Below, in pieces: positions 5,642 through 43,580 of a stretch of 64,000 bases of DNA. A program made the position numbers and the translations under genes. The DNA is taken from assembly GCA_002005505.1 (NCBI GenBank), contig KV908589.1, positions 124,001-188,000 on the forward strand, written 5' to 3'. The notes below the pieces were generated by a model. The model was not told where the DNA came from. It did not search any database and was given only the letters and a program-made list of their open reading frames with translations. This stretch comes from Botryococcus braunii (Eukaryota; Chlorophyta; Trebouxiophyceae). The first letter of the stretch is position 1; the number at the start of each line of letters is the position of its first letter.

Positions 5642-6318
5642 TTGGCGTATTCCTGTGCAGTGGCGGCACGGAGGGTGTGAGTCAAAGTTCGCTCTACTGT
5701 GTGACGAAGAGTAGAGTCTAGAACATGAACAATCAAGGACTGATTGGGCAACTTTAAGGAAACACCCGGAGTGCTTGTGAAGTCCCAAACAAGTCTATTA
5801 CAATTGCTCACTTGCTCTCTCTTAACAACGGAATTTAAACTATCCTAACTGGTACGTACTCAGAAAGGATCAATCTCATTGTCCGATGATAAGATAGCCA
5901 AGCACATACACATAACATGAAATATTAAGGTCAACAAAGCCTCAAATCTCCCTATCTATTCACCATCACGTTACCTGTGCAGTGGCGGCACGGAGGGTGT
6001 GAGTCAAAGTTCGCTCTACTGTGTGACGAAGAGTAGAGTCTAGAACATGAACAATCAAGGACTGATTGGGCAACTTTAAGGAAACACCCGGAGTGCTTGT
6101 GAAGTCCCAAACAAGTGCCTTGCCTCTCCGTGCTAGCACCACTACCTTCCTGCACTAAACGTGTCTGTAACTTGCGTTATCTTTATCTTCGTTCAAATTG
6201 TTCCTAACCGCTAAGTCTTTGTAGTTTCGCCCATATTAGTCATTTATTATTGTCACTGACGGAATAGCCACTATTACTCCACTGAGGGAAAGGCATAAAT
6301 AACTCATCCAATACAACA
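5627..6318 (-). repeat. Copia-A 5' LTR (692 bp) with duplicated leader
   Basis: The LTR runs TGTTG...TAACA on the minus strand. A 142 bp segment occurs twice, at 5975-6116 (copy 1) and 5653-5794 (copy 2). Copy 1 ends CACAG followed by GTAACG; copy 2 ends CACAG followed by GAATACG. TGTAA (5798-5802) lies 3 bases before copy 2. No convincing TATA box is left upstream of copy 1, unlike in its relatives. The U3 region shares a CCTTTCCCTCAG block with Copia-B, F and G. Confidence 0.88.
5653..5974 (-). other. predicted 322-nt intron in Copia-A LTR leader
   Basis: On the minus strand it starts GTAACG right after leader copy 1 and ends GCACAG at the end of copy 2. Removing it joins copy 1 to GAATACGCC and the primer site, leaving a single leader. 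It contains the TGTAA signal and all of copy 2. The position matches the introns of the other family I LTRs. Confidence 0.65.
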
Positions 6319-6507: not shown

Positions 6508-7835
6508 GGCCTACCGCGTCCCCTTGCCCGGCCCCGTCCACGGCCCCGTCCTCTGATTCTCCTTCCCCGTCCGGCCCCACCCTGTGCTGTCCACCCTTGC
6601 ATAGGGGCTGCTCCCACACCGAGGGACCTAAAGTTGTTGTGGCCCCCTCCTACCCGTCGCCGCAGCAAATCACCAGCCAGACCTGGAATTGGTGGAGCAG
6701 GCTGGTTTACCTCCTGTCTGGCCTTCACAATGTGTTGCAAGATGTCCCACTGTTGTTGATTAAGATAGGCGTTAGGGTCCTCTCTAAGTTTTTTGAGTGG
6801 GCAAAACCAAGATTCATGGCCAGGGGTATTGCACGCGTAACAGCTTCTGTTGAGGGGAAAGGCAACTCTAGTGTCCCTCCGATACTCGGGAGGTAAACCA
6901 TCCCTGCGGGGATAAGGAGTCGCGCCTTGGATCGCGGCGACCGTGGCGAGCGGCGCAGGGTAACCATGGGCCATATGGATTGGCGCTGCCACCATCGGTG
7001 CAGCTGCCATCATCCCAAATTCATGACTGTAGTAGGGGATTGTCCAGTCCTGTCCGACGCCAGCAACGTGCGGTGCTTGGCCAACGGTGGCGGTTGCAAT
7101 GCTTGAGTTAGGGCCCCCGGGGCCGGTTCTCAGTCTCTTTGCCTGTAAGGGCCCGCCCACCGCGGCATCGTACCGTGTGAGTAAACTTATCAAGGCATCC
7201 AAATCATCAAAACCTTTGCCTGTTGTAGGGTTAATTGCTGAATATTTCTTTAAATCCTCACGTAGGCCTTTACGAAACCTATGGATTTTCTCCCCCATGG
7301 ATAGGTCCCCACTGACTTCTACCTCTGCAAGCAAGGTTGTAAAGCGCTCAACATACTTTTCAACTGATTCGTTGCCTTGATATACGGAATCAAGTTTATC
7401 CCTTGCCTTTGCAACCTTATCAGTGTTATCACAGACAGAAGACAACAGATCCCCAAAGAGAGCTAAATCCACGACAGCACCTGGATTTTGCTTCACGTAA
7501 GCTGCTTTTTTGGTTAACCACACCTTTTTCACGCTCTTTCCTAAGCAGCGCACTGCGTAGTCAACCCTGAGGTTCGCGGGCACACCGGTGAGTTCACAAT
7601 ATGACCTCACATCGTCTAGGAATTGTTCGAGATCGTCCCTGCGTCCCTCGAATTTTTCCGGTAAGTGGGTTCGAACGGTCGGGATTCTTGCCTGTGGGTT
7701 CGCGGGGTTTTGAGCCGCAACTTCAGCGTTTTCTGCCTGTTGTCGTAACTCAGCCAGTTCGGCAGCCATTGCCGCTTCACGCCCCTCGGCCTCTGCCAAA
7801 GCAGCCTGCAGCTCTTCGATTTGTCGTCTAGCCAT
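6504..7835 (-). CDS. Gypsy-A gag
   Basis: This gag has 443 residues from MARRQIEELQ. The N-terminal ~45 residues are heptad-like and should form a coiled coil. Next come the conserved gag core (KFEGRRDDLEQFL, VRCLGKSVKKVW, RFRKGLREDLKK) and a CCHC knuckle (CYACNTPGHESWFC). An RG-rich tail (GRGRGRGRARGRGR) is probably RNA-binding. It would assemble the particle and package the RNA. The frame is open upstream of this ATG, so a longer N-terminus is possible. The stop overlaps the pol start as ATGA. No lesion was seen. Confidence 0.9.
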   Translation of the reverse strand: MARRQIEELQAALAEAEGREAAMAAELAELRQQAENAEVAAQNPANPQARIPTVRTHLPEKFEGRRDDLEQFLDDVRSYCELTGVPANLRVDYAVRCLGKSVKKVWLTKKAAYVKQNPGAVVDLALFGDLLSSVCDNTDKVAKARDKLDSVYQGNESVEKYVERFTTLLAEVEVSGDLSMGEKIHRFRKGLREDLKKYSAINPTTGKGFDDLDALISLLTRYDAAVGGPLQAKRLRTGPGGPNSSIATATVGQAPHVAGVGQDWTIPYYSHEFGMMAAAPMVAAPIHMAHGYPAPLATVAAIQGATPYPRRDGLPPEYRRDTRVAFPLNRSCYACNTPGHESWFCPLKKLREDPNAYLNQQQWDILQHIVKARQEVNQPAPPIPGLAGDLLRRRVGGGHNNFRSLGVGAAPMQGWTAQGGAGRGRRIRGRGRGRGRARGRGRP

Positions 7836-8038
7836 GTCTGAGCTGTCAGTGCTGGCGAGGCTCGGTGACACAGGAAATCGAGAAAGTCCGGGTGGGGGCC
7901 CTAAACTCGGTGACCCGAGTCGTAGGCCCCTAAAAGCGCCACACACACCACAAGTAACCCAATCCGAATCTATAGAATTCTCTGAAAAACTTCTTTGGGA
8001 AATTTTTTCAACGGGAGGAGCTCAAAATTTGGCCCCTC

Positions 8039-8050
8039 TCGCCGATACCA
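8039..8050 (-). promoter_or_regulatory. Gypsy-A primer-binding site
   Basis: Minus-strand TGGTATCGGCGA begins one base after the LTR. The TGG pairs with a tRNA CCA end. Gypsy-B, Gypsy-C, TRIM-1 and TRIM-2 carry the same 12 bases, so all would use the same primer tRNA, with acceptor strand ending CGCCGATACCA. Confidence 0.85.
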
Positions 8051-8051
8051 G

Positions 8052-8348
8052 TGATACAGTAGAAACGGCCAAAGGATGCGGGAACAATGGTTACAACTTG
8101 TTTGGGCTCCACCTCAGTACCCTTCCAGTCCGGCCCGGTCCTTCCTCTGCCAAAGCCTTATTCTATCATGTTCTAAGTGTCCCTGTCTCCATCGCCAATG
8201 CGCCTTGTCAAGTAAGGGGTCACTCCCTTGGCGTGTGAAGCAGCCACTTTTTGGCGTGGAGGACCATAACTCACGAAGGGACCTTTATGGAGGTCCAAAG
8301 CCTCGTGGTCCGGTCATTTTCCTATAACACGCGACTATTCCTGTTACA
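8052..8348 (-). repeat. Gypsy-A 5' LTR (297 bp)
   Basis: On the minus strand it starts TGTAACAG and ends CTGTATCA, an imperfect terminal inverted repeat bounded by the primer site on one side and Copia-B coding sequence on the other. TGTAA occurs about 50 bases before the LTR end. It has no duplicated leader, unlike the copia LTRs. Confidence 0.82.
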
Positions 8349-8366
8349 ATTGGTGCTGGGAGCATT

Positions 8367-9043
8367 TTGCCTCCAGGACACCGATACTGTGAGCTGGTTG
8401 GGTCCCTATTGTATATTGCCAATACCACCAGGCCTGATATAGCTCAAGCTATGGGGGTACTCTCTCGTTATAGGATTAATCCTACCACAGCACACTGGAA
8501 TGAAGCCATCAGGGTGCTGAAATATCTTAAGGGAACGAGAGAGCTGGCTCTGATTCTTGGAAGGAAGGATACAGAATTAGAAGGTTTTGTAGATGCTGAT
8601 TATGGTGGAGATCAAGATCATCGCTTCTCCACTACAGGTTATGTCATCCGCGTGTTTGGAGGGGCTGTAGTTTGGGAAGCAAGAAGCAGTCTGCAGTGGC
8701 CACTTCCACTGTAGAAGCTGAGTTCATGGCAGCAAGTGCAGCTGTCAAGGAGGCTAATTGGGTGAAGGGCTTCCTCGAGGAAATTGGCATTTCCCCGTGG
8801 ACAGTCAAGATTCACTGTGATAATCAGGGATGTATCAATCATCTCAGAAATCCAGTGTTCTCAAAGCACACTAAGCATATTGCATTCAGCTTCCACTTTG
8901 CTCGCGAAGCTATTGCATTGGGTCAGGTTGATGTGAAATACGTTCCCTCAGCCAGGAATGTAGCAGACATCTTCACCAAGCCTTTAACAAGGCAGATATT
9001 TCAAGGACATCGTGAGGCTCTTGGTTTGGCCAAGTTTTTGTGA
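8367..9043 (+). pseudogene. Copia-B pol, RT C-terminus and RNase H, frameshifted
   Basis: The first part reads PPGHRYCELVGSLLYIANTTRPDI and DADYGGDQDHRFSTT. The frame then breaks near 8672, where a G is missing in the VVWGSKK segment (TTTGGGAAGC where relatives have TTTGGGGAAGC). The next frame continues SKKQSAVATSTVEAEFMAAS through NVADIFTKPLTRQ to the normal stop at 9043. All RNase H blocks are present, so the damage seen is one base. Confidence 0.88.
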
Positions 9044-9061: not shown

Positions 9062-9793
9062 TGTTATAATAGTGAAAGAACATTTGGTGCCTTTCCCTCA
9101 GAAGAGTAATAGTGGCCAGATCAGCTCGGATTAACCTGCAGGAACATTCATTAGAATGAGTAATAGGTGGAAGAACCTAGGAGTTCTGCCAGAATCAATC
9201 TAGACCAATTTCGCATAGATTAGAGAGAATGAGGTAATTGGACACGGTTTGCTAGAAAGGACTTACGACGCCGGCGTGCAAGGACGAGGCACTTGATTGG
9301 GACAATAAAGGCACTTCGGGTGCTTATCTCTTAACTGTTGCCTATCAAGTCCTCATTCACATTCGGTCACTGCTTGTTCTCCAACACACAACAAGAGTGC
9401 CGACGAGCTAATCACCCTTCGTGCCCGGGTCATACAGGTAACCTGACGTTGAGTGACAGAAGCCTCATTGACAATTGGTTAGGAAGAGGTCTAGGTAATG
9501 TTATTAGGTTGGTGCTAATGCTTTTGCTCATTGAACACTGGTAATGCAGACTATCGGTAGTTACGTAGATTAAGTAGTTTGAATTACGGAGTGATGAGAG
9601 AAAGCAAGTAGCATTGTAATGACTTGATTGGGACAATAAAGGCACTTCGGGTGCTTATCTCTTAACTGTTGCCTATCAAGTCCTCATTCACATTCGGTCA
9701 CTGCTTGTTCTCCAACACACAACAAGAGTGCCGACGAGCTAATCACCCTTCGTGCCCGGGTCATACAGGAAACACCACGCTCAGAATTGTTCA
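9062..9793 (+). repeat. Copia-B 3' LTR (732 bp) with duplicated leader and intron
   Basis: It starts TGTTATAATAG after the polypurine tract. Leader copy 1 is 9291-9437 and the apparently identical copy 2 is 9622-9768 (147 bp each). Copy 1 is followed by GTAACC and copy 2 by GAAACACC, giving a predicted 331-nt intron at 9438-9768 ending ATACAG. TGTAA (9615-9619) lies 2 bases before copy 2. The TATA position of relatives (29 bp upstream) has decayed to CTTACG. The leader begins ACTTGAT, later pairs with ATCAAGT, and holds a CAC-TTCG-GGTG hairpin. Confidence 0.88.
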
Positions 9794-12586: not shown

Positions 12587-13286
12587 TGTTGAGTTCTGAA
12601 CATTATTATTGAATGCCTTGTGCTTTAAGTGATCTTCAGGTGTGCACTATTAGGATATGGGTCCGTTGAGAACATAAGGTACCTTAAGACACGTCAGGTT
12701 GTGGACGATTTCGAACATAAGGTACAATTTGGTCTAGATTACGCGTTAGTGTGAAAGGACAATTAAAGCTGCGATCACCGCATAGTCGTGCAACTGGTTT
12801 GGAAAGATACTGGGCACATAAGGATGCCAGTCTTGTTCATGCAGTTGCATGTGCCTAAAGAGCAGACAGTCGTCGAGGACTGTAGCTGGAGAGGCACGAA
12901 CTTACGACCTGTCTGCTTGCTTACAGGTGCGGTGACGCAGGGTGTGTATTGGTAATGTGTTCATGGTTGATTGCTTGCTTGTAGGTGAACCATCTTAGTG
13001 TACAATCAAGTCTCCCAAACAGCTAAGGGACGGAGTCTTGATTGAGTATTGGAAGGTACCTGCTTTCAGCCGTCAGGAGCTTATCCGTGTGTAGATGCTC
13101 ATTGACAGATCAACGTGTAACGAAACTGGGTTGGAAAGATACTGGGCACATAAGGATGCCAGTCTTGTTCATGCAATTGCATGTGCCTAAAGAGCAGACA
13201 GTCGTCGAGGACTGTAGCTGGAGAGGCACGAACTTACGACCTGTCTGCTTGCTTACAGGATACGCCACTGCCCATAACCTTTTACA
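12587..13286 (+). repeat. Copia-C1 3' LTR (700 bp) with duplicated leader and intron
   Basis: It starts TGTTGAGTTC and ends CCCATAACCTTTTACA. Leader copy 1 is 12792-12926 and copy 2 is 13124-13258 (135 bp each). Copy 1 is followed by GTGCGG and copy 2 by GATACG, giving a predicted 332-nt intron at 12927-13258 ending TTACAG. TGTAA (13116-13120) lies 3 bases before copy 2, and a TATA-like ATTAAAG lies about 30 bases before copy 1. U3 holds two ACATAAGGTAC sites (12672-12690 and 12715-12725), the motif also found in the internal palindromes. Confidence 0.86.
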
Positions 13287-14409: not shown

Positions 14410-15117
14410 TGTTGTGTAAACTGATAAGGACGTATAGTTACGTGATGGCAAACGTACATAAATGCAAGGTCAAATGTTCAAGGACTCAAACAGTTTACTA
14501 AGCAGTTTTAGAAACATTGTATGACTTGAACTTCTCCACGTGTGTAGTACAAGGCAGTAGATACGCCTGCTTACGTGTCTAGGAAAGAGTGTGTTGATCA
14601 CTAGGGATGATCATATAGCTACCTCTACGCAGTACAGGTCTTGGACAAGTGACAACTTGGTCACTAGTTAGAGACTCTATTGAGAGTGTACACGTGTATT
14701 TGATTAGAGCATCTGGTGTAGCAATAGAGTTACACGTTGGCATTAGAGCCAAGTCAGGATCACTTTATGTGACCATGCGGTACGGTACGGCATCTCGAGA
14801 GCTGCGTACCGTTACTGACGGTTACGATCGAGGGGTATAGAAACGCTAGATCGTGAGCAGGCTTGGCAGTCGCATAGATGTGGAAGACATCGGAACTGCG
14901 CTCCAAGCTTGTCAGTGAATGCTCAGTATTCTTGTGGATTCAGAGTTAATGCCACTTTGCACACAAAATTCTGGTGAGTTCACGATCTACCGTATGGTAA
15001 CGGTCGCAGCCGGGTGGCTGCGATCGCACGGTTTAGACGTTTATTTGTTGAGAGCATCATTGATCTTGTAGTGATGAATGTGTTTAATGAACAGGAGTCG
15101 TGAAGCTTGTTTGTTAC
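14410..15117 (+). repeat. Copia-D1 3' LTR, first part (U3, exon 1, intron 1, start of exon 2)
   Basis: It starts TGTTGTGTAAACTG. TATAGAAA is at 14836-14843, 32 bases before the inferred transcript start at 14868. Exon 1 is 14868-14973. Intron 1 is 14974-15094 (GTGAGT...AACAG). Exon 2 starts at 15095 and is cut by Copia-F at 15117 within a TTACTGTT/AACAGTAA hairpin. The rest is at 57969-58776. Confidence 0.85.
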
Positions 15118-15834
15118 TGTTATATTTTGGAAGATTGACATGTGCCTTTCCCTCAGGAGAGGAATAGTGGCCAGACCAGCTCTGATCGAAAGGCGGGAAC
15201 AATCCCAGAATGAGTAATAGGTGGCAGAACCTAGAAGTTCTGCCAGGACCAATTTAGACCGATTTCAGTTAGATTAGAGAGAATGAGGTAATCTGACACG
15301 GTTTGCTAGAAAGGATATATGTCGCCGGCTCGAAGGGACAAGGCACTTGATTGGGACTACGCACTTCAGGTGTTTGTCTGAACAGTTGCCAATCAAGTCA
15401 TCTCACACAGTCGCCACTGCTTGTTTCTCGACACACAACAAGAGTGCCGCCGGACTAAACACCCTCGTGCCGGGTCATACAGGTAAACTGATGTTGCAAC
15501 ACTGAATCCACAGGAACAATGGATTAGGAAGAGGTCTAGATAATGTGCATTAAGAGAGTGCTAATGTTTTAGCTCATCGGACACTGGTAATACAGACTAT
15601 CGATAGTTACGTAGATGCAGTAGCTTGAATTACTGAGTGATGAGAGAGAACAGTAAGCATTGTAATAGACTTGATTGGGACTACAAAAGCACTTCGGGTG
15701 TTTGTCTGAACAGTTGCCAGTCAAGTCATCTCACACAGTCGCCACTGCTTGTTCTCGACACACAACAAGAGTGCCGCCGGACTAAACACCTTCGTGCCGG
15801 GTCATACAGGAAACGCCAAGCTCATAAGTTTACA
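15118..15834 (+). repeat. Copia-F 5' LTR (717 bp) with TATA, duplicated leader and intron
   Basis: TATATG (15317-15322) lies 29 bases before leader copy 1 (15346-15482). Copy 1 is followed by GTAAAC. Copy 2 (15669-15809) is followed by GAAACG. The predicted intron is 15483-15809 (327 nt, ends ATACAG). TGTAA (15661-15665) lies 3 bases before copy 2. The leader begins ACTTGATTGGGAC, pairs later with AGTCAAGT, and includes a CAC-TTC(A/G)-GGTG hairpin. U3 carries an inverted repeat GGCAGAAC/GTTCTGCC. Confidence 0.9.
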
Positions 15835-18816: not shown

Positions 18817-19370
18817 TGTTGTATAAACTGATAGGTACGTATAGATACGTGATGGCAACCGCACTTAGATACAAGGGCGCTATCAGTTTATCAAGTGGTT
18901 TTAGGAAACATTGTATAAGTTGAACTTCTCCACGTGTGGAGTACAAGTAAGAGGATGCGCCTGATTGCGTGTCTAAGGGTAATGTATTATGTTCAGTTAG
19001 GTTGATCATATAGTGACCTCCATGCAGTACAGGTCTTGTACTAGTGACGGTAAGGTCACAAGGTAAAGACTCCCTTGAGTGTGTACACGTGTATAAGTTT
19101 AGGATCCCTGGTGCAGCTGTAGAGCTACACGTTGGCATAGGGCCAAGTCAGGGTTGTTTATGTGGCCATGCAGTACGGTACGGCTTCTCAAACGAGACTG
19201 TACCGTTACCGCCGGTTACGATCAAGAGGTATAGAAACGCCAGATCGCGAGCGAGCTTGGTAGTCGATGGGGTGTGGAATGCATCTAGGCTTCGAGCTTC
19301 AAGCTGAATAGTGTTTGCTCTGTATTGAATGACTGCTTGATAAACTGCTGTCACACTCATTCCAATACAG

Positions 19371-19493
19371 GTAAGCGAGCGATCGTTGGCAAGGGTAACG
19401 GTCGCAGTCGAGTGGCTGCGATCGCAGGTTTTAAGCGCATGCATACTGATGTTTCTGCTGATAATGAAACATTACATGTGTCTTGTGTTGCAG
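19371..19493 (+). other. LTR intron 1 of Copia-E (123 nt)
   Basis: It starts GTAAGC and ends TTGCAG. It is absent from the fused copy at the 20038/20039 joint, and its size agrees with 53457-53579 in the 3' LTR. It contains a hairpin built on GGTCGCAG/CTGCGATC. Confidence 0.88.
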
Positions 19494-19573
19494 GAGCTGC
19501 ATTGCTTGTGTGTTACTGTTGTGCGAACAGTAAGGCTATTTGTGTGTGACGAGTTACACACTGGTTAATAGCG

Positions 19574-19659
19574 GTGAGTACAGATACGTATAACAAGCTT
19601 GCTCCTGCTGGTTAAATAACTGTTTTGTTATGATCTCTGATGATCCACATATTGTGCAG
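19574..19659 (+). other. LTR intron 2 of Copia-E (86 nt)
   Basis: It starts GTGAGT and ends TGTGCAG. It is absent from the fused copy at the 20118/20119 joint. The 3' LTR has the same intron at 53660-53745. Confidence 0.88.
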
Positions 19660-19731
19660 ATTGGTTGGGAGTAGCCATTAAACTCATGGGACTGCTAAAG
19701 GGCCAAGGGTGTCCTGATCGGAGAGCAGTCG

Positions 19732-19835
19732 GTACGTGCACATATGTGGATAGGTTGCGTGTGTGTTTGCTATGGTTTAGATATATTTTAAGGACACTGA
19801 TGAACCCACAAGTAAATCGCAACGCTCGGGTGCAG
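19732..19835 (+). other. LTR intron 3 of Copia-E (104 nt)
   Basis: It starts GTACGT and ends GGTGCAG. It is absent from the fused copy at the 20190/20191 joint. The 3' LTR has it at 53818-53921. Confidence 0.88.
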
Positions 19836-19902
19836 GCAGATATAGACGGCTTTGCGAGCCCTGGTCTATATAGACATTGAGAGTACTTGGTGGTGTTCAC
19901 AG

Positions 19903-20257
19903 GTAAATATACGTAAACCATTTGTAACGAGTCGATGGGGTGTGGAATGCATCTGGGCTTCGAGCTCCAAGCTGAATAGTGTTTGCTCTGTATTGAATGA
20001 CTGCTTGATATACTGCTGTCACACTCATTCCAATACAGGAGCTGCATTGCTTGTGTGTTACTGTTGTGCGAACAGTAAAGCTATTTGTGTGTGACGAGTT
20101 ACACACTGGTTAATAGCGATTGGTTGGGAGTAGCCATTAAACTCCTGGGACTGCTGAAGGGCCAAGGGTGTCCTGATCGGAGAGCAGTCGGCAGATATAG
20201 ACGGCAGTGCGAGCACTGGTCTATATAGACATTGAGAGTACTTGGTGGTGTTCACAG
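19903..20257 (+). other. predicted LTR intron 4 of Copia-E, containing the spliced copy (355 nt)
   Basis: It starts GTAAAT after exon 4 and ends TTCACAG at the end of the fused copy. If used, it deletes the TGTAA signal and the whole second leader, leaving exons 1-4 joined to GAAGTGACC and the primer site. This is the family III equivalent of the single intron in families I and II. Confidence 0.7.
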
Positions 20258-20322
20258 GAAGTGACCCTCTGACGGCATACGTACCGCTGACAGTTACGGC
20301 ATCCTCCAACTAATACAAAAAA

Positions 20323-20339
20323 AAGGTGCTGGGCCCACC
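20323..20339 (+). promoter_or_regulatory. Copia-E primer-binding site, variant half-tRNA type
   Basis: The bases after the LTR include TGGGCCCACC followed by GCTT, matching the complement of the initiator-Met anticodon arm. The first bases (GGTGC) differ from the GGTTA of families I and II. Confidence 0.65.
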
Positions 20340-20905: not shown

Positions 20906-21635
20906 TGTAATCTTCTGAGTTCGGCGTTTCCTGTATGACCCGGCACGAGGGTGTTTAGCCCGGTGACACTCTTGTTGTATGTCGGTTAACAAGCAGTGGC
21001 GACTGTGAGTGAGGTGACTTGACTGGCAACAGTTAAACGACAAACACCCGAAGTGCTTTTGATGTCCCAATCAAGTCTTACAATGCTTGTTGCTCTCTCT
21101 CATCACTCAGCAATTCAAACTACTCTATCTACGAAGTTACTGATAGTCTGCATTACCGATGTCCGATGAGCTAAAACATTAGCACCTTTCTAATACACAT
21201 TATCTAGACCCTTTCCTAATCCATTGTTCTTGTGCCCGTAATGTCCTGACAACAGTTTACCTGTATGACCCGGCACGAGGGTGTTTAACCCGGCGACACT
21301 CTTGTTGTATGTCGGTTAACAAGCAGTGGCGACTGTGAGTGAGGTGACTTGACTGGCAACAGTTAAACGACAAACACCCGAAGTGCTTTTGATGTTCCAA
21401 TCAAGTGCCTCATTCCTTCGAGCCAGGAGCATATAGCCTTTCGAGCAAACCGTGTCTGATTACCTCATCCTCCCTCATCAACGTAAAATTGGTCTAGATT
21501 GGTTCTGGCAGAACTCCTAGGTTCTGCCACCTATTACTCATTCTAATGAATGTTCTCACTGATAATTGGAGCTGATCTGGCCACTATTACTCTTCTGAGG
21601 GAAAGGCACCAAAATGTTCTTTCACTATTATAACA
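20906..21635 (-). repeat. Copia-G 3' LTR (730 bp) with duplicated leader and intron
   Basis: On the minus strand copy 1 is 21406-21261 and copy 2 is 21076-20931 (146 bp each). Copy 1 is followed by GTAAAC and copy 2 by GAAACG, so the predicted intron is 20931-21260 (330 nt). TGTAA (21078-21082) lies one base before copy 2. Polypurine tract AAAAGGCAAGGGGAAG adjoins at 21636-21651. Confidence 0.9.
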
Positions 21636-22126: not shown

Positions 22127-22577
22127 TTTAACGAAGTGAGACGTGTAACTAAGATTTATAACAAGCTAAGCAAGGGTTTCAGGCAAGGGTGACACCGAAG
22201 GTAGAAATCGAAGTTCCAATCCGTTACAAGTTCGCAGCCCTCCTCACGCAGGTCGTCCGAGTCTCCAAAGAACAATATATAATGAACAATGTAGAGAATG
22301 CTAGATGTCTCACTCGTAGCAGCAAAACCCAAAGACAATGATCGCCACCCGAGTTCCTAGTCCACCTATGCGCGGATCCGGCTACGTCGTCCCTCTACGA
22401 GATGCTCTCGCGAGCATAACGATATGGATGACGAGAGGAGACCCACTAGGATATTACAGTCATTTTCCTACACACAAGGACAACGAGATCTACTCGTATC
22501 CCAAAGGGCACGAAGAAACATGAACTACGCGCACATCCTACGTGAGACGCGTCGCGCTGACGCGGCACCTCACTACA
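22127..22577 (-). repeat. Gypsy-B 3' LTR (451 bp)
   Basis: On the minus strand it starts TGTAGTGAGG and ends CTTCGTTAAA, so the 3' terminus is AA and not the usual CA. The TSD fixes both ends. TGTAA occurs inside it (TTGTAACGG). There is no duplicated leader. Confidence 0.88.
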
Positions 22578-23135
22578 TACTCCCCCCCTTATTCCTGTGC
22601 GTCCCCGCGCAGAAGGCAGAGCGCAACAACAAACAGACAAGGCAAACAAAGGAACAGAAAGACCTTCCAACATGCGGAGACTCAGACTTAGACCTACGGG
22701 CAACCCGCCTCCCGTGTTGCCAGACCCCAGCCGAATGCTGCGTATCGGGGTCCCCACCATAATGCAATAACAACAAGGATCAGGCATGACTAACAGAACA
22801 AAAGACAAAACACTGAAAGAAAAACGAAAGTCCACATGATGAACAGCCAAAATGAGACACAAGGGCAGAGCTAAAAGTCCAGATGTCCAAAAGTCCAGAG
22901 TCCAAGGGGAGTCCAATTTCCACATATAGTCCAGTATTACGCCAGTATTGCACCATATTGATCAGGTGTGGTAGTGAAGTGAAAAGGCCATACACCTAAT
23001 GTGCACAAAAATCTATCCAGGTAAGGGACCCATGGTCAACCCTACCGGGTAAGGCAGCCTTACCCTAGCCTATCCAAAGTCCATATGGCCATACAGAGAG
23101 ACCCCTCCAAGGAGGGCCAACCGGTCGACGGGACC
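22578..23135 (-). other. Gypsy-B 3' untranslated region and polypurine tract
   Basis: A 558 bp stretch between the pol stop and the 3' LTR. The end next to the LTR is purine-rich on the minus strand (GGGGGGAGTA) and serves as the plus-strand primer tract. I see no further gene in it. Confidence 0.7.
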
Positions 23136-26100
23136 CTAAGGGTGGACCCTAGGAGTCGTGCCCTTGGGAGGCAATGGCGGGAGCCCGTGACTCTCTCTGT
23201 ATTCTTCCACTTTCTTGTGGCAACGCGTGAAATGGTTGAGTGGCTCCCAACTGTCCTCGCTGGGATCGTGGCCCTTCCAGCGGACGAGATATTGCAGATG
23301 AGGGGACCCGTCCGGGTCGTACAGAGCACGGCCGCGGTCATCGGTGCGCGGCTTGTGATCCAGAATGGTCTCAACCTCATACTCAATGTGATTGTTGACG
23401 AGGTGCGGGGGTGGCGGCGGCGTGCGCACGCGGGCGCCCTCTGCAGTGCGGTAGAGGGTGAGGAAATTCACATTGACTACGGGGTGGTAGTGGTCGTAGC
23501 CGTCGGGGAAGTCCAGACGGTAAGCATTGGGACCGGGAGAGTCAAGGACCTTGAAGGGCCCCACGCGGCGAGGCGCAAACTTGTGTGGAAGTTTGCGGTG
23601 CACTGCAAAGAAGTCCCGGTCCACCAGCACGAAGTCACCGGTGGCGAAGGTGACATTGCTACGGCGCCTATTCGCATAGGCGGCCTGACGGTCTTGGGCT
23701 GCAGCCAAAAACTTTTGTGCCCGTCGGATGTCTGAGCCCATCTTCCGCACAAAGTCATCCGCATTCCCAATTCCAGTTTTGCCCAAGTGGCCATTCGCAA
23801 ACGGCACGTTTGGATCTTGGCCATACGTGAGCCGAAAGGGTGTGGTGTTTATTGAGGTTTGCCATGCGTTGTTATATGCGAATTCTGCTTCAGGCAAGTA
23901 ACTATCCCAGTCCTTCCCATGATCCGCCACATAGTGTTTCAGATAATCTCCCAAGATGCGGTTTGTCCTTTCGGTTTGACCATCCGTTTGAGGATGGAAA
24001 GCAGTTGAAAGGGCAGGTCGACATCCCGTAAGTTCATGTAATGCCTTCATAAACTTACTCACAAAGCGGGGATCCCGATCAGAAACAATTTCCTCCGGAT
24101 ACCCATGATACATCCACACCCGTGTCCTTAGCAATTGTGCTACAGTATAAGCATCAGCATTCATGGTTGTAGCAGCAAAATGAGCACACTTGCTAAGCCT
24201 ATCCACAACAACCCAAATCGCATCATGTCCACTTGGGGTCTTTGGGAGGTTAGTAATAAAGTCCATAGACACACTTTGCCACTTCCTTGCTGGTATTTGT
24301 AAGGGGTGAAGAAGACCAGCAGGCAAAGTATTCCGAGCCTTGACTCGTTGACAAGAGTCACAATGAGCAACATAGGCTTTGACATCCTCATACATTCCCG
24401 GCCAGTACCATTCCCTTGTTACAAGCTCGTACATGCGAGTTACTCCAGGGTGACCAACATGAGGTGGATCATGTAAAGCTTCCAAAATTCCACGTCGTAG
24501 GTTCTCCACGACAAGTTCCCCATCTTTCCTTTCCTCAAACAATGCAGGAACATATTTCCGTCCATTCCTCTCCCAAAAGCCTCCCTTTAGACTAACCTTC
24601 CTTCTATTCGCACGCGCTGCCAACCACGGATCGTATGTGTAAGCCTTCTCAAGTTTGCCAAGTAGGGATTCGTACCCATCGGTCTCGCGGGTAAGCTCAC
24701 TCGGGCTGGCCAACCCGATTTGCTCCATCGTGCCGAGGGAGCTTGGGGTCTCGTGAGCGGGCCCCGGGAGCGTGACCTTGGGGACCTTGCGGGCCCGAGC
24801 TGTGAGGGTACCCTCGACATCCCGGCTGGAGGGGGTGAGGGAGTCCGGACTGGTGCGCCGACGCTTGCGCCGGAGGGCAGCCCCGGCCACAGCAGCCCCA
24901 TTGTCCCTCCCCCCAGGTCCAGGGTGTTGAGTGAAGTGACACCTGGAGAGCGGATCCGCAATGTTGGTCTTGCCCGGTTCCCATACCCATTCAATCTCAA
25001 ACTCCTGCAGGCGCTCGGCCCACCGAGCCCTCCGAGGACTAAGCCCCACCTGTTGACCCAAGAAGGTGTTGCACTTGTGATCCGTCACCACCGTTACTGG
25101 CTTACCTAACAAATAACATCTCCATTCCGTGAGAGCATACACTACAGCCAATAACTCCCGTTCCGTGGCACTGTAGTTCCTCTCGCTTGCTCCCAACTTT
25201 TTACTGAAATACGCACAAACCTTCCCATCTTGAAATAGCACAGCTCCCACGCCGTAATCGCATGCATCGCACACTACCTTAAATGGCCGACGTACGTCCG
25301 GGAGTGTTAAGATAGGGGCACTTACCAAAGCTTCCTTTATGTTGTCAAATGCTTCCTGTTGTTCCTGTCCCCACTTCCAAGGTGCTTTTGCCCCAGAGAG
25401 AGCTGTCAATGGGGTTGCCAGGATACTGTAGTTCTGAATAAACTTTCGAAAGTAATTAGACAACCCAAGAAACCTCCTAACTTCCGTTACGTTTGTGGGC
25501 GTAGGCCACTCCTGCACCACCTTGACTTTATCCATATCCACTTCCAACCCATTTTCCCCAATGATGTGTCCCAAGTATTTCAATTGTTTCTCAAAGAAAG
25601 AGCATTTGACAAGTTTTGCCAGGAGTTGATGTTCGCGTAGACGGGTGAAAACTCTGTCCAACTGCAGAAGGTGTTCCTCTTCCGTTTTGCTATAAATGAG
25701 CACATCATCCAAGTATACAACCACAAAGCCTTCCCTTATAAAGTCGTGAAAAACCTCATTCATAAGCCGTTGAAATGTCGCGGGCGCGTTGGTCAAACCA
25801 AAGGGAAGTACAAGAAATTCGTACAAGCCAAAAGGGGTCCTGAAGGCAGTTTTAGGCACATCCTCCTTGCGAAGTCGCACTTGATGGTACCCAGACAACA
25901 AGTCCAAGCTCGAAAACACCTTGGCTCCCTTAAGCCTATCCAACAGATCGTCAATTCTGGGGAGAGGGTACCTATCCGAGATGGTAATTTTATTCAGGGG
26001 ACGGTAGTCTATTACCATACGCAAACTTCCATCCTTCTTTCTAACAAACAAAACAGGTGATGCAAATGGTGAGCAACTTGGCCTGATCAATCCCAATTTT

Positions 26101-27323
26101 AACAACTCATCAACCGTTTTTTCGCATTCCGCAAGCTCACTTGGAGCAAGACGGTACGCGGGCCTATTGGGGGGCCGATGTCCTTCTTCCAAATTTATTG
26201 TGTGAAACACTTCCCGCTCCGGGGGTAACCCCGGGAGTTGTTTTGCAAACAAGTCCTCATTTGCAAGTAACAAGTCTTTCAGGGCCTGTGGCTTGCCTTC
26301 CAACATGTCATTTATTTGATGAGTGAAAGTCATACCGGTACTACTGGGGGGTTTTGTGACGACGGGGGTGTCGTCCATAGATTTGTCGGTGTCCGCCAAG
26401 TCGGCCTCACTTGAGGCGTCCTCCCCGGTGATGTCCACCAGTTCAGCCTGCTCATTCACAAGCACAGTATACAAACAAACCTTCCAAACATCTTGTCCCT
26501 TCCATCCTTTTCCATTCCTATCCTTCCTTCCTTCCTTCCTCTCTTGTGCTTGTAAACCCCAAACAAGTTTTGGCCCCACTGGCAACGATGAATTTGCGTG
26601 TTTTAGGGTGACCCACTTCCCATTATGTCTAAATTGAGCAGCCTTTACACAAAAATCAATTGAGACTCCTCTTTCTTCCATCCAGTCCTGCCCCAAAATC
26701 ATGTCTACCCCATCAATCATGGCAGGGCTTACAATGAAGTTGTGACGGGAAGTTATACCAGGCTTGAGTGTAAACGACACATCTACCGTTCCTTTCGTAT
26801 CGGACACACTTCCATCAGCAAGAGTCACGGATATGCATGCGGGTTTGTATCGCACCCCTAGCCCTTGCAAAGTATCACTTTTAATAAACGAATGAGATGC
26901 CCCACTATCAAACAACACTGAAAGGATTTTCCCCTTAACATTCGCCGGAAAGGTCATAGCTAGCGGAGAGTCAGTAGTAACACTTCCCATGGTGAGTGTG
27001 GGTCTTGGGGGAACCACACAACATACAAAAGAGAATGGGCATACACTAGTTTGACCATTCATGTCCACCGCCTGTCCCTTCCTTCCTGAACACACTTCCA
27101 CAATCCTTCCTTGCATACGGTGAGCATAGAGACTCTTACTTTTCCAAGTTTTCCTTCCCACAATGAAACAACAAGTGAGGGACGGGTTGCACCTTTGTTC
27201 CCATAAAAACTTGGAAATCTCAGATTCAGCCTTCCTAACATTTGGCACCACAAGGTTCACCCCTTCCTTTCCCAAATTGGAGGCCACAAGAGAGTGCAAA
27301 ACATGCAAGCAAGTGGCATCCAT
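23136..27323 (-). CDS. Gypsy-B pol: protease, RT, RNase H, integrase, chromodomain
   Basis: An intact ORF of 1395 residues from ATG 27323, which has a good context (CCATGG). Protease DSGA is at residue 139. RT motifs VRKKDGSLRMVIDYRPLNK and YLDD (residue 537) follow, then RNase H (ATERELLAVVYAL, VVTDH). Integrase has an HHCC finger (~950-990) and catalytic D1021, D1082 and E1118 with D(35)E spacing. A C-terminal chromodomain (EYEVETILDH...YLVRWKGHDPSEDSWEP, ~1310-1365) defines chromoviruses and typically directs integration to marked chromatin. RT-RNase H before integrase is the Ty3/gypsy order. It starts 11 bases after the gag stop in another frame. Confidence 0.95.
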   Translation of the reverse strand: MDATCLHVLHSLVASNLGKEGVNLVVPNVRKAESEISKFLWEQRCNPSLTCCFIVGRKTWKSKSLYAHRMQGRIVEVCSGRKGQAVDMNGQTSVCPFSFVCCVVPPRPTLTMGSVTTDSPLAMTFPANVKGKILSVLFDSGASHSFIKSDTLQGLGVRYKPACISVTLADGSVSDTKGTVDVSFTLKPGITSRHNFIVSPAMIDGVDMILGQDWMEERGVSIDFCVKAAQFRHNGKWVTLKHANSSLPVGPKLVWGLQAQERKEGRKDRNGKGWKGQDVWKVCLYTVLVNEQAELVDITGEDASSEADLADTDKSMDDTPVVTKPPSSTGMTFTHQINDMLEGKPQALKDLLLANEDLFAKQLPGLPPEREVFHTINLEEGHRPPNRPAYRLAPSELAECEKTVDELLKLGLIRPSCSPFASPVLFVRKKDGSLRMVIDYRPLNKITISDRYPLPRIDDLLDRLKGAKVFSSLDLLSGYHQVRLRKEDVPKTAFRTPFGLYEFLVLPFGLTNAPATFQRLMNEVFHDFIREGFVVVYLDDVLIYSKTEEEHLLQLDRVFTRLREHQLLAKLVKCSFFEKQLKYLGHIIGENGLEVDMDKVKVVQEWPTPTNVTEVRRFLGLSNYFRKFIQNYSILATPLTALSGAKAPWKWGQEQQEAFDNIKEALVSAPILTLPDVRRPFKVVCDACDYGVGAVLFQDGKVCAYFSKKLGASERNYSATERELLAVVYALTEWRCYLLGKPVTVVTDHKCNTFLGQQVGLSPRRARWAERLQEFEIEWVWEPGKTNIADPLSRCHFTQHPGPGGRDNGAAVAGAALRRKRRRTSPDSLTPSSRDVEGTLTARARKVPKVTLPGPAHETPSSLGTMEQIGLASPSELTRETDGYESLLGKLEKAYTYDPWLAARANRRKVSLKGGFWERNGRKYVPALFEERKDGELVVENLRRGILEALHDPPHVGHPGVTRMYELVTREWYWPGMYEDVKAYVAHCDSCQRVKARNTLPAGLLHPLQIPARKWQSVSMDFITNLPKTPSGHDAIWVVVDRLSKCAHFAATTMNADAYTVAQLLRTRVWMYHGYPEEIVSDRDPRFVSKFMKALHELTGCRPALSTAFHPQTDGQTERTNRILGDYLKHYVADHGKDWDSYLPEAEFAYNNAWQTSINTTPFRLTYGQDPNVPFANGHLGKTGIGNADDFVRKMGSDIRRAQKFLAAAQDRQAAYANRRRSNVTFATGDFVLVDRDFFAVHRKLPHKFAPRRVGPFKVLDSPGPNAYRLDFPDGYDHYHPVVNVNFLTLYRTAEGARVRTPPPPPHLVNNHIEYEVETILDHKPRTDDRGRALYDPDGSPHLQYLVRWKGHDPSEDSWEPLNHFTRCHKKVEEYRESHGLPPLPPKGTTPRVHP

Positions 27324-27334
27324 GGCTTCAGAAT

Positions 27335-28543
27335 TTACTTTTGAGGATTATGCCCCGGCCCTTTTCCCTTCCAATGTGCTCCCCGGCCACCACGGCCCTT
27401 CCACTGCCCACCTCGAGCTTGATTAGAGGGGAAAGGAGGAGGTGGGGGCAATTGACTGTCGCGCCTGCTCTTCCTTTGCAAGTAGTCCCGCTTGGCCTGA
27501 CATTGCCATTGCTCGTGACCAAAGTTTTTGCAGAAATAACACTGGCGCTCGGAGGGGACGCTTGTCCGAGAATCTAACTTCCCACCAACGGTGTGTCCGA
27601 CGGCTCCAAGCACAGGCCCCTGGGTGAATCCCGGAAAGTATGCCGGCGTGCTTGTTGGAGTCCTCTTCACAACGTTGAGAACCTTCCTTCCTTCCTGTCC
27701 CCTCAGCATCCCCCCTGATTTTAAGTTGCTTTCATATTGCACCACATAAGTGCACAATGAGTCGAGGCTTGTGAACCTGACACCAGTTTGAGGGTTAACT
27801 GTGCAAGCAACTCTAATAGGAGCATTCAGGCCTTTGAGGAACATATATATTTTATCATTTTCGCAGATGTCATATTCGGTTTCTACATCACTCAACAAGG
27901 AAATAAACCTTTCTATGTATCTTTCAACGCTTTCTTGCCCTTGATAAACATGGTCTAATTTTTGCCGGGCAGCCATAACCAAATCTGTAGAGTCGTATCG
28001 ATTTCCCATAAAATTTTTAAAGTCTTCCCATGTTGGCTCTGTTTGACCTCCTTCCCTTTCCTTCCTTTTGAGGTATGTCCCCCAAACCTTTGTAGGTCGC
28101 TCCTCCATACATTGCAGCGCGACTGCCACCCACTTGTCCCTTGACACATTTGAAATGTTCACATATGATTCCACCTTACTAGCAAAGAATTGGAAGCTTC
28201 CTCTTTTTCCTGTAAACATGGCTGGTGTAGGCACACGCACGACGTTAGTGGTGGATGACGTCCGCTTGGATGCTCGTTCTCCCTCCAAGGCCTCAATCCG
28301 CTTCAATAACCGTAGAATTAGGGATTTAGTCTTATTTTTCTTCAAGGGTGTCTTCAAAGGAGTGGGTTTGGGTTTCGTTTTGGGTGTGGTCGGTTTGGGC
28401 GATGGGGCCAGATGCAATTCCGTTTCGGACTCTTCCAAAAGATCATCGACTTCAATACCTTCCTTTTCCAAACCTTCCAAAATTTCTTTCTCTTTAAGGG
28501 GGAGACCGGAGTACTTGTTTCCTTTCCGTTTAACCGCCATCAT
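27335..28543 (-). CDS. Gypsy-B gag
   Basis: It has 402 residues from MMAVKRKGNKYSG. The N-terminus has a charged helical stretch and a Pro/Lys-rich segment (TTPKTKPKPTPLKTPLKK). The core (KLDHVYQGQESVERYIERF) aligns with Gypsy-A and Gypsy-C. The CCHC knuckle is CYFCKNFGHEQWQC, and the tail is RG/K-rich (GQWKGRGGRGAHWKGKG). It forms the particle and binds RNA. No lesion was seen. Confidence 0.92.
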   Translation of the reverse strand: MMAVKRKGNKYSGLPLKEKEILEGLEKEGIEVDDLLEESETELHLAPSPKPTTPKTKPKPTPLKTPLKKNKTKSLILRLLKRIEALEGERASKRTSSTTNVVRVPTPAMFTGKRGSFQFFASKVESYVNISNVSRDKWVAVALQCMEERPTKVWGTYLKRKEREGGQTEPTWEDFKNFMGNRYDSTDLVMAARQKLDHVYQGQESVERYIERFISLLSDVETEYDICENDKIYMFLKGLNAPIRVACTVNPQTGVRFTSLDSLCTYVVQYESNLKSGGMLRGQEGRKVLNVVKRTPTSTPAYFPGFTQGPVLGAVGHTVGGKLDSRTSVPSERQCYFCKNFGHEQWQCQAKRDYLQRKSRRDSQLPPPPPFPSNQARGGQWKGRGGRGAHWKGKGPGHNPQK

Positions 28544-28609
28544 GTTGCAATGGAACAATGCAATTACAACCTTCCCTACGTCTCCCTTCGGTTCGAGGCT
28601 CTAACCGCC

Positions 28610-28621
28610 TCGCCGATACCA
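28610..28621 (-). promoter_or_regulatory. Gypsy-B primer-binding site
   Basis: Minus-strand TGGTATCGGCGA lies one base after the 5' LTR, identical to the sites of Gypsy-A, Gypsy-C and both TRIMs. Confidence 0.88.
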
Positions 28622-28622
28622 A

Positions 28623-29073
28623 TTTAACGAAGTGAGACGTGTAACTAAGATTTATAACAAGCTAAGCAAGGGTTTCAGGCAAGGGTGACACCGAAGGTAG
28701 AAATCGAAGTTCCAATCCGTTACAAGTTCGCAGCCCTCCTCACGCAGGTCGTCCGAGTCTCCAAAGAACAATATATAATGAACAATGTAGAGAATGCTAG
28801 ATGTCTCACTCGTAGCAGCAAAACCCAAAGACAATGATCGCCACCCGAGTTCCTAGTCCACCTATGCGCGGATCCGGCTACGTCGTCCCTCTACGAGATG
28901 CTCTCGCGAGCATAACGATATGGATGACGAGAGGAGACCCACTAGGATATTACAGTCATTTTCCTACACACAAGGACAACGAGATCTACTCGTATCCCAA
29001 AGGGCACGAAGAAACATGAACTACGCGCACATCCTACGTGAGACGCGTCGCGCTGACGCGGCACCTCACTACA
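28623..29073 (-). repeat. Gypsy-B 5' LTR (451 bp)
   Basis: It has the same length and apparently the same sequence as 22127-22577, including the non-canonical AA terminus next to the primer site. Confidence 0.9.
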
Positions 29074-29078
29074 CTCTG

Positions 29079-29694
29079 TGTCCTTCCCTCCAAGGACCAA
29101 AACGAGATCTCTGGTTGCCTTAAGATATTTCAGCACTCTGATGGCTTCATTCCAGTGAGCAGTAGTAGGGGTAATCCTGTACCTGGAAAGCACTCCCACA
29201 GCCTGTGAAATATCAGGCCTAGTGGTATTTGCAATGTACAACAGTGACCCAACCAGTTCAAAGTACCTGTGCCCTGGTGGCAGAGGGCTCCCAGCACCAA
29301 TGCTGTCACTGTTGTCCTTGGACATAGGCCTCTGTGTGGCTACAAAATCTTTAGTCATAGGGGTGTCACGCCCCACAGACTCCAGATCCAGCCCAAATTT
29401 CTCAACCAGTGCATCAATCTTAGGGATGCAGCTCAACGAAATTAGCCCTTTATCCCTATCTCTCATCACTTGACAGCCCAGAAAATCTTTTACCTCTCCT
29501 AAATCATGAATGGTGAACTCTTGCTTGAGTAAACCCTTCACTCTCTCAATCTCTCCCATGCCTTTGGACACTATCAGCAGATCATCTACATAAATCAACA
29601 CAAATGACTTTCCTCCATCTACTGAACACTTCACATAGACACCAGCATCACTCTTGCACACTTCATAGCCCATGGTATGCAGCTTCTCATTAAG
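29079..29694 (-). pseudogene. Copia-G RT, C-terminal segment between TRIM-2 and Gypsy-B
   Basis: The minus-strand frame is open across the whole segment: EKLHTMGYEVCKSDAGVYVK, VLIYVDDLLIVSKG, EFTIHDLGEVKDFLGCQV, PPGHRYFELVGSLLYIANTT, ending at the Gypsy-B LTR. The catalytic YVDD is intact. It is separated from its N-terminal part only by the TRIM-2 insertion. Confidence 0.88.
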
Positions 29695-30278
29695 TGTAAC
29701 GTGCGAGCGGATCGGGCCTGGCGACCCCGGTCCGGCTCGGGTACATAAGCCGCTTAGAATTCCATCGAAGACCTGGATCGTACCTCTTTTCAAGATGTTA
29801 CGATGTCCCCCTAGCGACTGGGCAGTCGCGGGTTCGATTCTCGTTACACTTGGTATCGGCGACGAGGGCTGATTTTTCCCCGTCGCGCGAGACTCGGGAA
29901 AACGGACTTGCCCGTAAGGGGGGATGAGATTCCAGGGTCCGTATGATCCGGAGTTGGTGGAGTTATCCGAGGGATGCTTCACGTGATCGCCATGGCGCGT
30001 GGTATGGGACGCGCGTCCTGACCGGTCGGCCGGGTTGCCTTGGCTCGTGGTATGGGACGCGAGTCTAGGCTGATCCGACGGGAAGAGCACAATCGAGGAC
30101 GATTGTGGTCTAAGCGGGGGAGAGTGTAACGTGCGAGCGGATCGGGCCTGGCGACCCCGGTCCGGCTCGGGTACATAAACCGCTTAGAATTCCATCGAAG
30201 ACCTGGATCGTACCTCTTTTCAAGATGTTACGATGTCCCCCTAGCGACTGGGCAGTCGCGGGTTCGATTCTCGTTACA
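29695..30278 (+). mobile_element. TRIM-2, 584 bp terminal-repeat retrotransposon
   Basis: LTRs of 154 bp (29695-29848 and 30125-30278) run TGTAACG...CGTTACA and differ at one site. TSD TTAAG is at 29690-29694 and 30279-30283. The primer site TGGTATCGGCGA starts at 29851, and a polypurine tract (GCGGGGGAGAG) precedes the second LTR. The core is non-coding. The LTR ends in a tRNA-like segment with a B-box match GGTTCGATTCT, preceded by a GCGACT/AGTCGC hairpin; its A box is unclear. The first half of the LTR resembles TRIM-1 (GAGCGGATCGGGCCTGG, TACATAAGC), so the two are related. Confidence 0.9.
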
Positions 30279-34091: not shown

Positions 34092-34096
34092 TCATA

Positions 34097-34337
34097 TGTA
34101 ACAGGGGTTCAACGATCGGGTGAACCTCGTGACGCATAACGGCGTTACACGTGCAGTAGCGCACCGGTGGTGCTGCTGTGCGGGCAGAGATTGGACAAGA
34201 TAGAGAGGTGTTAGGATAGTCTAGGCACCTAAAGGCTTGGGTTTAGAGTTATAGAGACCTTGGGCGAGAGGTGGAGCCCCATTATGTAAGGTTCGTGGCA
34301 GTCGGGGTTTGGGACCTTTGCCGATCGGTCCGTGACA
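34097..34337 (+). repeat. Gypsy-C 5' LTR (241 bp)
   Basis: It starts TGTAACAGGGG and ends CCGTGACA. GGTTCA/TGAACC near the start can form a hairpin. TGTAA (TATGTAAGG) lies about 55 bases before the end. There is no duplicated leader. Confidence 0.9.
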
Positions 34338-34538
34338 GTGGTATCGGCGAGAGGGGCTTAGGCCCCTTTCGTGAGCCGACTGAGTCTAGAAAGGTATATT
34401 TATTTATGTAATTTAATAGAAGAGGAATTTGCCGCTTGGGAGTTAGATTTAGCGAGGAGACGTCGTGAAGTCTCACAGGGCCCCCAACTCGACGATCCCT
34501 CTCGTTCCGTACAATCTGATGCCTCAATAACTTCAGAA

Positions 34539-39921: not shown

Positions 39922-40162
39922 TGTAACAGGGGTTCAACGATCGGGTGAACCTCGTGACGCATAACGGCGTTACACGTGCAGTAGCGCACCGGTGGTGCTG
40001 CTGTGCGGGCAGAGATTGGACAAGATAGAGAGGTGTTAGGATAGTCTAGGCACCTCAAGGCTTGGGTTTAGAGTTATAGAGACCTTGGGCGAGAGGTGGA
40101 GCCCCATTATGTAAGGTTCGTGGCAGTCGGGGTTTGGGACCTTTGCCGATCGGTCCGTGACA
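39922..40162 (+). repeat. Gypsy-C 3' LTR (241 bp)
   Basis: Matches 34097-34337 except one A/C difference (CACCTAAAGG versus CACCTCAAGG). Followed by TSD TCATA. Confidence 0.92.
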
Positions 40163-43543: not shown

Positions 43544-43580
43544 GGAAGTGTGGGTGAAGTTGAAAGACTTGTGACTCACT

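Follow-up and report, generated by a model that had tools for sequence, protein, structure and literature searches.

Copia LTRs of Botryococcus braunii carry an intron-bearing leader beside its exactly spliced copy and are probably rebuilt from RNA that is spliced in its 5' leader but not at its 3' end

Results

A nest of Copia elements

The window analysed here, a 64,000-nucleotide stretch of a Botryococcus braunii contig (KV908589.1, positions 124,001 to 188,000), contains a nest of retrotransposons, designated according to our own grouping of repeat families (F1-F12). An F3 element (14410...58776) encloses an F2 element (15118...57968), which encloses an F1 element, which in turn encloses F4 and F5. 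The F1 5' LTR lies on the forward strand at 18817-20322, begins with TG and ends with CA, its end having been set by comparison with other copies. The 3' LTR of the same element (52902-54408, forward strand) is 97.7% identical to it over 1515 nt, and the two mates are 34 kb apart owing to the nested insertions between them. Within the interrupted F1 interior, Pfam domains of gag/pre-integrase type were located at 42053-43543, followed by rve and then RVT_2 at 43575-45227. The integrase/RT reading frame also contains two 30-bp tandem units (43653-43713).

Assignment to Copia is based on near-identical LTR pairs, an integrase located upstream of RVT_2 and 5-bp target duplications, all of which were found; the duplications are GTTAC/GTTAC for F2, GTTTT/GTTTT for F5 and, with four of five positions matching, GGGAC/GGGAG for F1. 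When the F1 integrase-RT protein was used as a query, the best three among the 120 matches listed of at least 602 (from up to 8000 candidates) were metagenome proteins (71, 64 and 78% identity). The first named organisms among the matches listed were Pleodorina starrii and Apatococcus lobatus, both at 42% identity over 28 and 35% of the query, respectively, and in the same list plants come next after the green algae. LHC genes are present in the genome and, together with these matches, fit a green alga. A scan of viral contigs with this protein gave no relative. The window additionally contains two Gypsy elements (22127-29073 and 34096-40162), one with a chromodomain, whose LTRs are short and nearly identical; neither of these two LTR pairs contains a duplicated leader. 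An Rfam search of the window gave no match.

A leader and its spliced copy in one LTR

The F1 5' LTR opens with U3 proper, the promoter part (18817-19261). This is followed by exon 1 (19262-19370, 109 bp), intron 1 (19371-19493, GTAAGC...TTGCAG), exon 2 (19494-19573, 80 bp), intron 2 (19574-19659, GTGAGT...GTGCAG), exon 3 (19660-19731, 72 bp), intron 3 (19732-19835, GTACGT...GTGCAG) and exon 4 (19836-19902, 67 bp), with a donor, GTAAAT, directly 3' of the last exon. These exons, delimited by repeat search and alignment, are here termed copy 1. Behind a spacer (19903-19929) containing a TGTAA (19923-19927) that is a putative poly(A) signal lies a fused block, copy 2 (19930-20257), which consists of exons 1-4 exactly spliced, so that intron 1, for example, is missing from it. 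The exon lengths (109 + 80 + 72 + 67) sum to the 328 bp of the block. The preliminary description had reported four exons and a fused block with GT-AG borders in this LTR, and both the sequence and the repeat search agree with that account. Its claim that the second block ends exactly at those borders is borne out by an alignment of copies 1 and 2 over 328 positions, with nine mismatches and no gaps. The 3' LTR has the same double layout. Among 25 intron-bearing F1 units, the GT and AG of all three introns are intact in 24, the exception being L053, in which one acceptor is changed.

U5 (20258-20322) starts with the G of a predicted exon 5. A fourth intron is predicted from the donor GTAAAT to the acceptor TTCACAG|G (19903-20257), and would hold the spacer together with the entire fused block; it is backed by elements in which a foreign U5 is joined at this acceptor and by a triple LTR (L049), both described below. 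The 3' end of the LTR adjoins a putative primer-binding site, AAGGTGCTGGGCCCACC (20323-20339), which may match a tRNA. The primer-binding site of copia matches one half of the initiator tRNA-Met. At the corresponding position behind the LTRs, GGTTATGGGCCCAC is found in F2 and F5, and GGTGCTGGGCCCAC in F1.

The layout recurs in other families and across the genome

The same arrangement, a leader of one to four exons with its spliced copy, is present in seven families of the window. Both F2 LTRs have the one-exon form (15118-15834 and 57247-57968, forward strand; copies 1 and 2 of the latter at 57474-57619 and 57802-57947). The F3 LTR, on the same strand, is split by F2 into a first part (14410-15117) and a second part (57969-58776) with its own fused block at 58389-58710. 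On the reverse strand, the layout is seen in an F4 LTR (20906-21635, mate at 41119-41848) and in the F5 3' LTR (46003-46703), the mate of which (approximately 52209-52577) is single and intron-less. A second F5-type LTR (12587-13286) and an F6 LTR (9062-9793, copies 0.7% apart), both on the forward strand, are double, and F8 has a duplicated leader at 5652-6116 on the reverse strand. The U5 end of F5, GCCCATAACC, is the reverse complement of the GGTTATGGGC that follows it (around 52195-52225, minus strand), and a hairpin at the border between LTR and primer-binding site is possible from these sequences.

With fetched loci included, the layout was found in about a dozen repeat families, with four exons in F1 and F3 and one exon in F2, F4, F5, F6, F7, F8, F9 and others; among these, F4, F6 and F9 are related to F2. 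F10-F12 are candidate LTRs with the same donor/TGTAA signature. The rule describing the layout is that copy 1 ends at a donor and copy 2 begins 0-4 nt behind TGTAA. When 187 direct-repeat pairs were judged in both orientations (374 judgements), 60 satisfied the donor rule as well as the TGTAA rule, one of these (L022, plus orientation) being spurious because it is on the wrong strand and L049 being counted twice, and six passed the TGTAA rule alone. Many of the non-passing pairs are later F1 exons, which are unable to satisfy the TGTAA rule, and F6, F10, L032 and others fail one strict rule although the layout is visible nonetheless. In six LTRs checked for TGTAA in sense orientation, the motif is single and at the joint between the copies in F1 (the window 5' LTR), F2, F4, F6 and one F5; the other F5 LTR has a second sense TGTAA. 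At F2-type joints (loci L029-L048), TGTAA is intact in 21 of 23, the remaining two being the one-base variants TGTTA and TGTGA.

Repeat pairs with a similar donor/TGTAA signature were also noted in L040 (50-321, minus strand), L048 (7078-7748) and L030 (563-1777), at spacings of 155, 528 and 1083 nt, respectively, and are perhaps further families. The window also has a 156-nt direct repeat (29693-29848 and 30123-30278; 99% identity, 430 nt apart), the first copy of which does not end at a donor.

The 176-Mb genome was then searched with exact patterns for F1-type exon 1 and its flanks. Exon 1 located directly behind U3 is continued by intron 1 at 72 sites and by exon 2 at a single site; where TGTAACN precedes it, exon 2 follows at 57 sites and intron 1 at none (Fisher p 1.6e-36 for position versus splice state, among copies that are related and often occur two per element). 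Eleven more fused copies stand behind TGTAATN. The fused block pointed out in the window is therefore present in further LTRs of the genome, and these counts are lower bounds, since exact patterns miss mutated copies, and also copy 1 of the window F1 element itself (CTTGGT before the start). An exact fused partner was located 655-685 nt downstream for 46 of the 72 intron-bearing matches, and the 72 include 16 mate pairs spaced 6.15-7.04 kb apart. Of 32 F1 units considered in detail, 20 are double (one without U3), one is triple, one is single and spliced, two are single and unspliced (one without U3), and eight are incomplete.

Copy 2 follows copy 1

In the F2 superfamily (26 LTRs), the two copies within an LTR are on average 2.3% apart, compared with 8.3% between LTRs for copy 1 and 8.2% for copy 2, and none of 10,000 shuffles gave a value as low. 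This set omits L030, L040, the second LTR of L041 and the first LTR of L048, which lack the TGTAA flag or are incomplete, and, like the joint test below, it includes both LTRs of some elements; repeated with one LTR per element (22 LTRs), the test gave 2.1% within LTRs versus 7.3% and 7.4% between them (0 of 10,000 shuffles). The F1 family behaves likewise, with 1.0% within and 1.9% between (21 LTRs) or, with one LTR per element (16 LTRs), 1.1% within versus 2.2% and 2.0% between, again with 0 of 10,000 shuffles as low in either case. In F6 and F9, the copies within the LTR are 0.7% apart and the closest other block sampled is 15.9% and 13.3% away, respectively. F1 subfamily and lineage variants are common to both copies of one LTR. 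A duplication inherited unchanged from a common ancestor predicts the opposite pattern.

This tracking of copy 1 by copy 2 from lineage to lineage supports repeated making or renewal of copy 2 from copy 1. With the mate LTR set aside, the copy 1 nearest to a given copy 2 is strictly its own in nine of 26 F2-type LTRs (one tie) and in one of 21 F1 LTRs (seven ties). Four related F2 elements have identical copies 2, and one variant restricted to copy 2 is common to L012 and the window F1 element. Among close relatives, the own copy 1 is thus usually not the nearest. Rewriting may, but need not, take place in each cycle rather than now and then; elements that are siblings of one parent, or cycles that were skipped, would equally give a non-nearest own copy 1.

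The joint between the copies is variable

At F2-type joints, the sequence from TGTAA to the first base of copy 2 (+1) is G, AG, AAG, TAG, TAC, TGC, C or TG, and the flanks barely change. Among 42 LTR pairs of less than 5% divergence, the joint window differs in 59.5%; other windows in the same 42 pairs differ in a mean of 9.9% and a maximum of 50%, and none of 342 matches the joint. The lead of the joint shrinks as more distant pairs are admitted, with two of 342 windows reaching it at less than 8% divergence and nine of 342 over all pairs. Four of the 26 LTRs are omitted from this test. On sequence grounds, the joint looks like a transfer scar.

In 68 exact F1 joints, +1 is preceded by G 55 times and by C 13 times, the search patterns having permitted any base. 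G or C in this position is also seen at F2-type joints, and T is present in L050 (F3) and L017 (F8). Most F1 U3 ends have C immediately before the start site. The G of the joint could derive from the cap and the C from the base before the start site. A mismatch count anchored at the joint displayed no clear dip in the first 15 nt, which is compatible with the presence or the absence of a short R.

Putative start site and poly(A) signal

A TATA-like motif, TATAGAAA, is located at 19230 in the F1 U3, and similar motifs occur approximately 31 nt before copy 1 in F2-F5; in F6 and F8, no clear TATA was found upstream of copy 1. The TATA spacing, together with the point at which the repeat starts, suggests that A19262 is the transcription start. 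The TGTAA at 19923-19927 is the sole sense TGTAA of the F1 5' LTR. UGUAA is reported as the poly(A) signal in most of the chlorophytes studied, with a peak approximately 17 nt upstream of cleavage (PMC1868727), and a signal at -10 to -20 is given for Chlamydomonas (PMC4701671). With approximately 17 nt between signal and cleavage, the RNA would extend over the first 10-15 nt or so of the fused block before its 3' end. By analogy, TGTAA probably acts as the poly(A) signal in F1-type LTRs. TGTAA displayed no enrichment near the eight long A-runs examined. The predicted signal lies inside the predicted last leader intron, such that splicing would remove it at the 5' LTR.

Recombinant LTRs break at or near the predicted joints

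Three kinds of recombinant LTR were found, each as a single case or a single lineage. In both LTRs of L012, copy 1 comes from one F1 subfamily, and copy 2 and U5 come from another, the break lying somewhere from the last copy-1 marker to about base 69 of copy 2. This pattern fits, and resembles, a swap of strong-stop DNA. In L011, copy 2 matches F1 at 320 of 327 positions and F3 at 231 of 304, and U5 matches F3 at 63 of 67 positions and F1 at 44 of 63, which places the break within approximately 6 nt of the splice border CACAG|G. A foreign U5 behind an F1 leader is also present in L014, L016 and L024, as judged by U5 and the primer-binding-site region, and L010 carries F1 copies 1 and 2 with yet another U5. 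L014 and L016 are apparently copies of one duplicated region. The L011 type could have arisen in two steps, in which a swap of strong-stop DNA would be followed by splicing of the new copy 1 to the foreign U5, one further cycle then overwriting copy 2. Of the splice junctions proposed in the preliminary description, 19902/20258 thereby gains backing from the genome sequence itself, the F1 leader being joined to foreign U5 at that border in the L011-type elements. The third kind is the triple LTR L049, with the order copy 1, spacer, copy 2, spacer, copy 2. It reads as the product of an RNA in which introns 1-3 were spliced and the last intron was retained, a by-product that the model set out below predicts.

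Interiors were compared among L009-L012 and L020. The bodies of L010 and L011 match those of L009, L012 and L020 in the last 850 nt, with approximately 90 nt also matching at the start in the comparisons with L009, and otherwise do not match. The same LTR leader is thus found with two body types that are alike mainly in the last ~850 nt before the 3' LTR, and by sequence this set is one of mosaic elements.

Single intron-less LTRs are rarely seen (L015, L062 and the F5 5' LTR). In L020 (1175-2257 versus 7571-9008) and F5 (~52209-52577 versus 46003-46703), the 5' LTR is without exactly the last donor-to-acceptor stretch, which the 3' LTR has; recombination between the copies or a step of reverse transcription could account for this loss.

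Discussion

A model for the rebuilding of the LTR

Introns are normally lost in retrotransposition, and the two LTRs of an element have the same poly(A) signal, which must be passed over in one LTR and used in the other. The Copia elements described here appear to solve both problems by one device. The exact splice copies, the likeness of copies within an LTR, the breakpoints at or near the predicted joints, the variable joint and the position of TGTAA are all observed in the DNA, and we consider it probable that these LTRs are rebuilt from RNA in which the 5' leader is spliced but the 3' end is not. The preliminary description had already proposed reverse transcription of a spliced RNA into the LTR, with the intron-bearing version kept alongside; this is the best-fitting reading, and the genome-wide pattern, the co-evolution of the copies and the breakpoints support it.

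Splicing, the start and poly(A) sites and a short R enter the model as predicted components. Transcription would begin at copy 1 (A19262). At the 5' end of the RNA, introns 1-3 would be removed together with the last intron, from the donor at 19902/19903 to the acceptor at 20257/20258, giving a leader that reads exon1-2-3-4|U5, while the fused block would leave with the last intron. Such a spliced RNA would still be copyable because every donor, and the acceptor, precedes the primer-binding site. The copy of this sequence at the 3' end would escape splicing and be cut behind TGTAA, no more than about 15 nt into the fused block, and the bases of the block up to the cut, matching the RNA 5' end, would constitute a very short R. 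Strong-stop DNA, the complement of the spliced leader and U5, would be transferred to this unspliced 3' end, and its extension would take in the spacer, the intron-bearing copy and U3, again yielding the order U3, unspliced leader, TGTAA, spliced leader, U5. Copy 2 would thereby be rewritten from copy 1 of the 5' LTR, and the introns, having the unspliced 3' end as their template, would survive. The likely benefit is that the poly(A) signal, being intronic, would be lost with its intron at the 5' LTR but persist at the 3' LTR; its absence from the 5' end would prevent early polyadenylation.

The model requires that the same introns be spliced at the 5' end and kept at the 3' end. Pairing of strong-stop DNA with the longer exon 1 of copy 1 could delete the introns. 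Intron-less LTRs exist yet are rarely seen, and therefore something must favour pairing at the RNA end. An LTR that loses its introns by exon 1 pairing (L015, L062) is left without TGTAA as well and could prove to be a dead end. A broader proposition, for which we regard the chances as evenly balanced, is that the spliced RNA is the obligate genome, such that each cycle rewrites the LTR from a spliced 5' and an unspliced 3' end, splicing gates both 5' polyadenylation and terminal redundancy, the cap site leaves a footprint in the DNA, and leaders swap between bodies by splicing.

Alternative explanations

The same rewriting might proceed by end-to-end transfer, in which cleavage immediately after TGTAA(N0-3) leaves an RNA end to which strong-stop DNA ending at the cap is joined, the two sharing no sequence. 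A joint that varies in both length and sequence is what such imprecise joining would give. However, cleavage in green algae mostly takes place 10-30 nt downstream of UGUAA, a distance at which the RNA would end within the fused block; moreover, no A-tract remains at the joint, and a cap-derived G, or a start 1-2 bases upstream, combined with a short R would also produce a variable joint. We regard this route as unlikely, though worth keeping in view. Quite improbable is a spliced copy that originated from RNA on one or a few occasions, its likeness to copy 1 then being maintained by gene conversion or recombination in DNA. Close direct repeats can convert or recombine, and single-copy LTRs do exist; in addition, a copy 2 often differs no more from the copies 2 of its close relatives than from its own copy 1, and L012 and the window element have their copy-2-only variant in common. 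Conversion would nevertheless have to act on each of as many as four short exons independently, without ever bringing intron 1 along into copy 2 (0 versus 57 places), and it predicts neither a break at the splice border nor a variable joint.

Transcription might instead start at the fused block (19930), which would then be an ordinary R-U5, the intron-bearing copy being a relic with no splicing at present. In F1, TAAATATA is indeed located ~26 nt upstream of the fused block, and F3 has a similar TAAATATAT. F2, F4 and F5 have no such motif there, their TATA-like sequence standing ~31 nt before copy 1 instead, and a relic would lose its splice sites, which are kept in 24 of 25 F1 units, and would not stay near copy 2 in sequence; a start at 19930 is thus very unlikely. 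An assembly artefact or a chance repeat is harder still to credit, to the point of being practically negligible, given the recurrence of the layout in dozens of places, in LTR mates and in several families, with 5-bp target duplications in F2 and F5.

If rebuilding from RNA spliced at one end only is correct, each LTR would be a DNA record of how the leader of its parent was spliced and where the RNA started, and RNA processing and strand transfer would become readable from genome sequence.

Comparison with known systems

A literature search, covering titles and the beginnings of abstracts and mostly without subscription papers, did not find an LTR with an unspliced leader beside its spliced copy. 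The order of the predicted sites in the LTRs described here (start, exon, donor, poly(A) signal) resembles that of the foamy virus LTR. The leader of foamy genome RNA is unspliced, and the foamy LTR is not known to contain a spliced copy. Unlike such a single-leader LTR, the LTRs described here, as known from their DNA, carry an exact spliced copy beside the unspliced one. In foamy viruses, the major splice donor of the LTR, upstream of the poly(A) signal, is linked to silencing of the 5' poly(A) site (PMC3694450), which is comparable to the removal of the signal proposed here.

Penelope-like elements keep introns through copying, and the available part of the source discusses this retention in terms of antisense or unspliced templates, not of a split between RNA ends (PMC3846280). 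They also belong to another enzyme class (Penelope RT and GIY-YIG), whereas the Copia frames of the window carry RVT_2 and rve by Pfam. The plant LTR elements Ogre and EVADE have functional introns that give subgenomic RNAs, and the part of the source available describes no LTR leader with a spliced copy for them (PMC12786077). With Ty1/Copia, the elements of the window share LTRs of the form TG...CA, gag, an integrase before RVT_2 and 5-bp target duplications; unlike Ty1/Copia, their LTR holds an intron-bearing leader together with its spliced copy, and the RNA from which it is rebuilt would itself be spliced.
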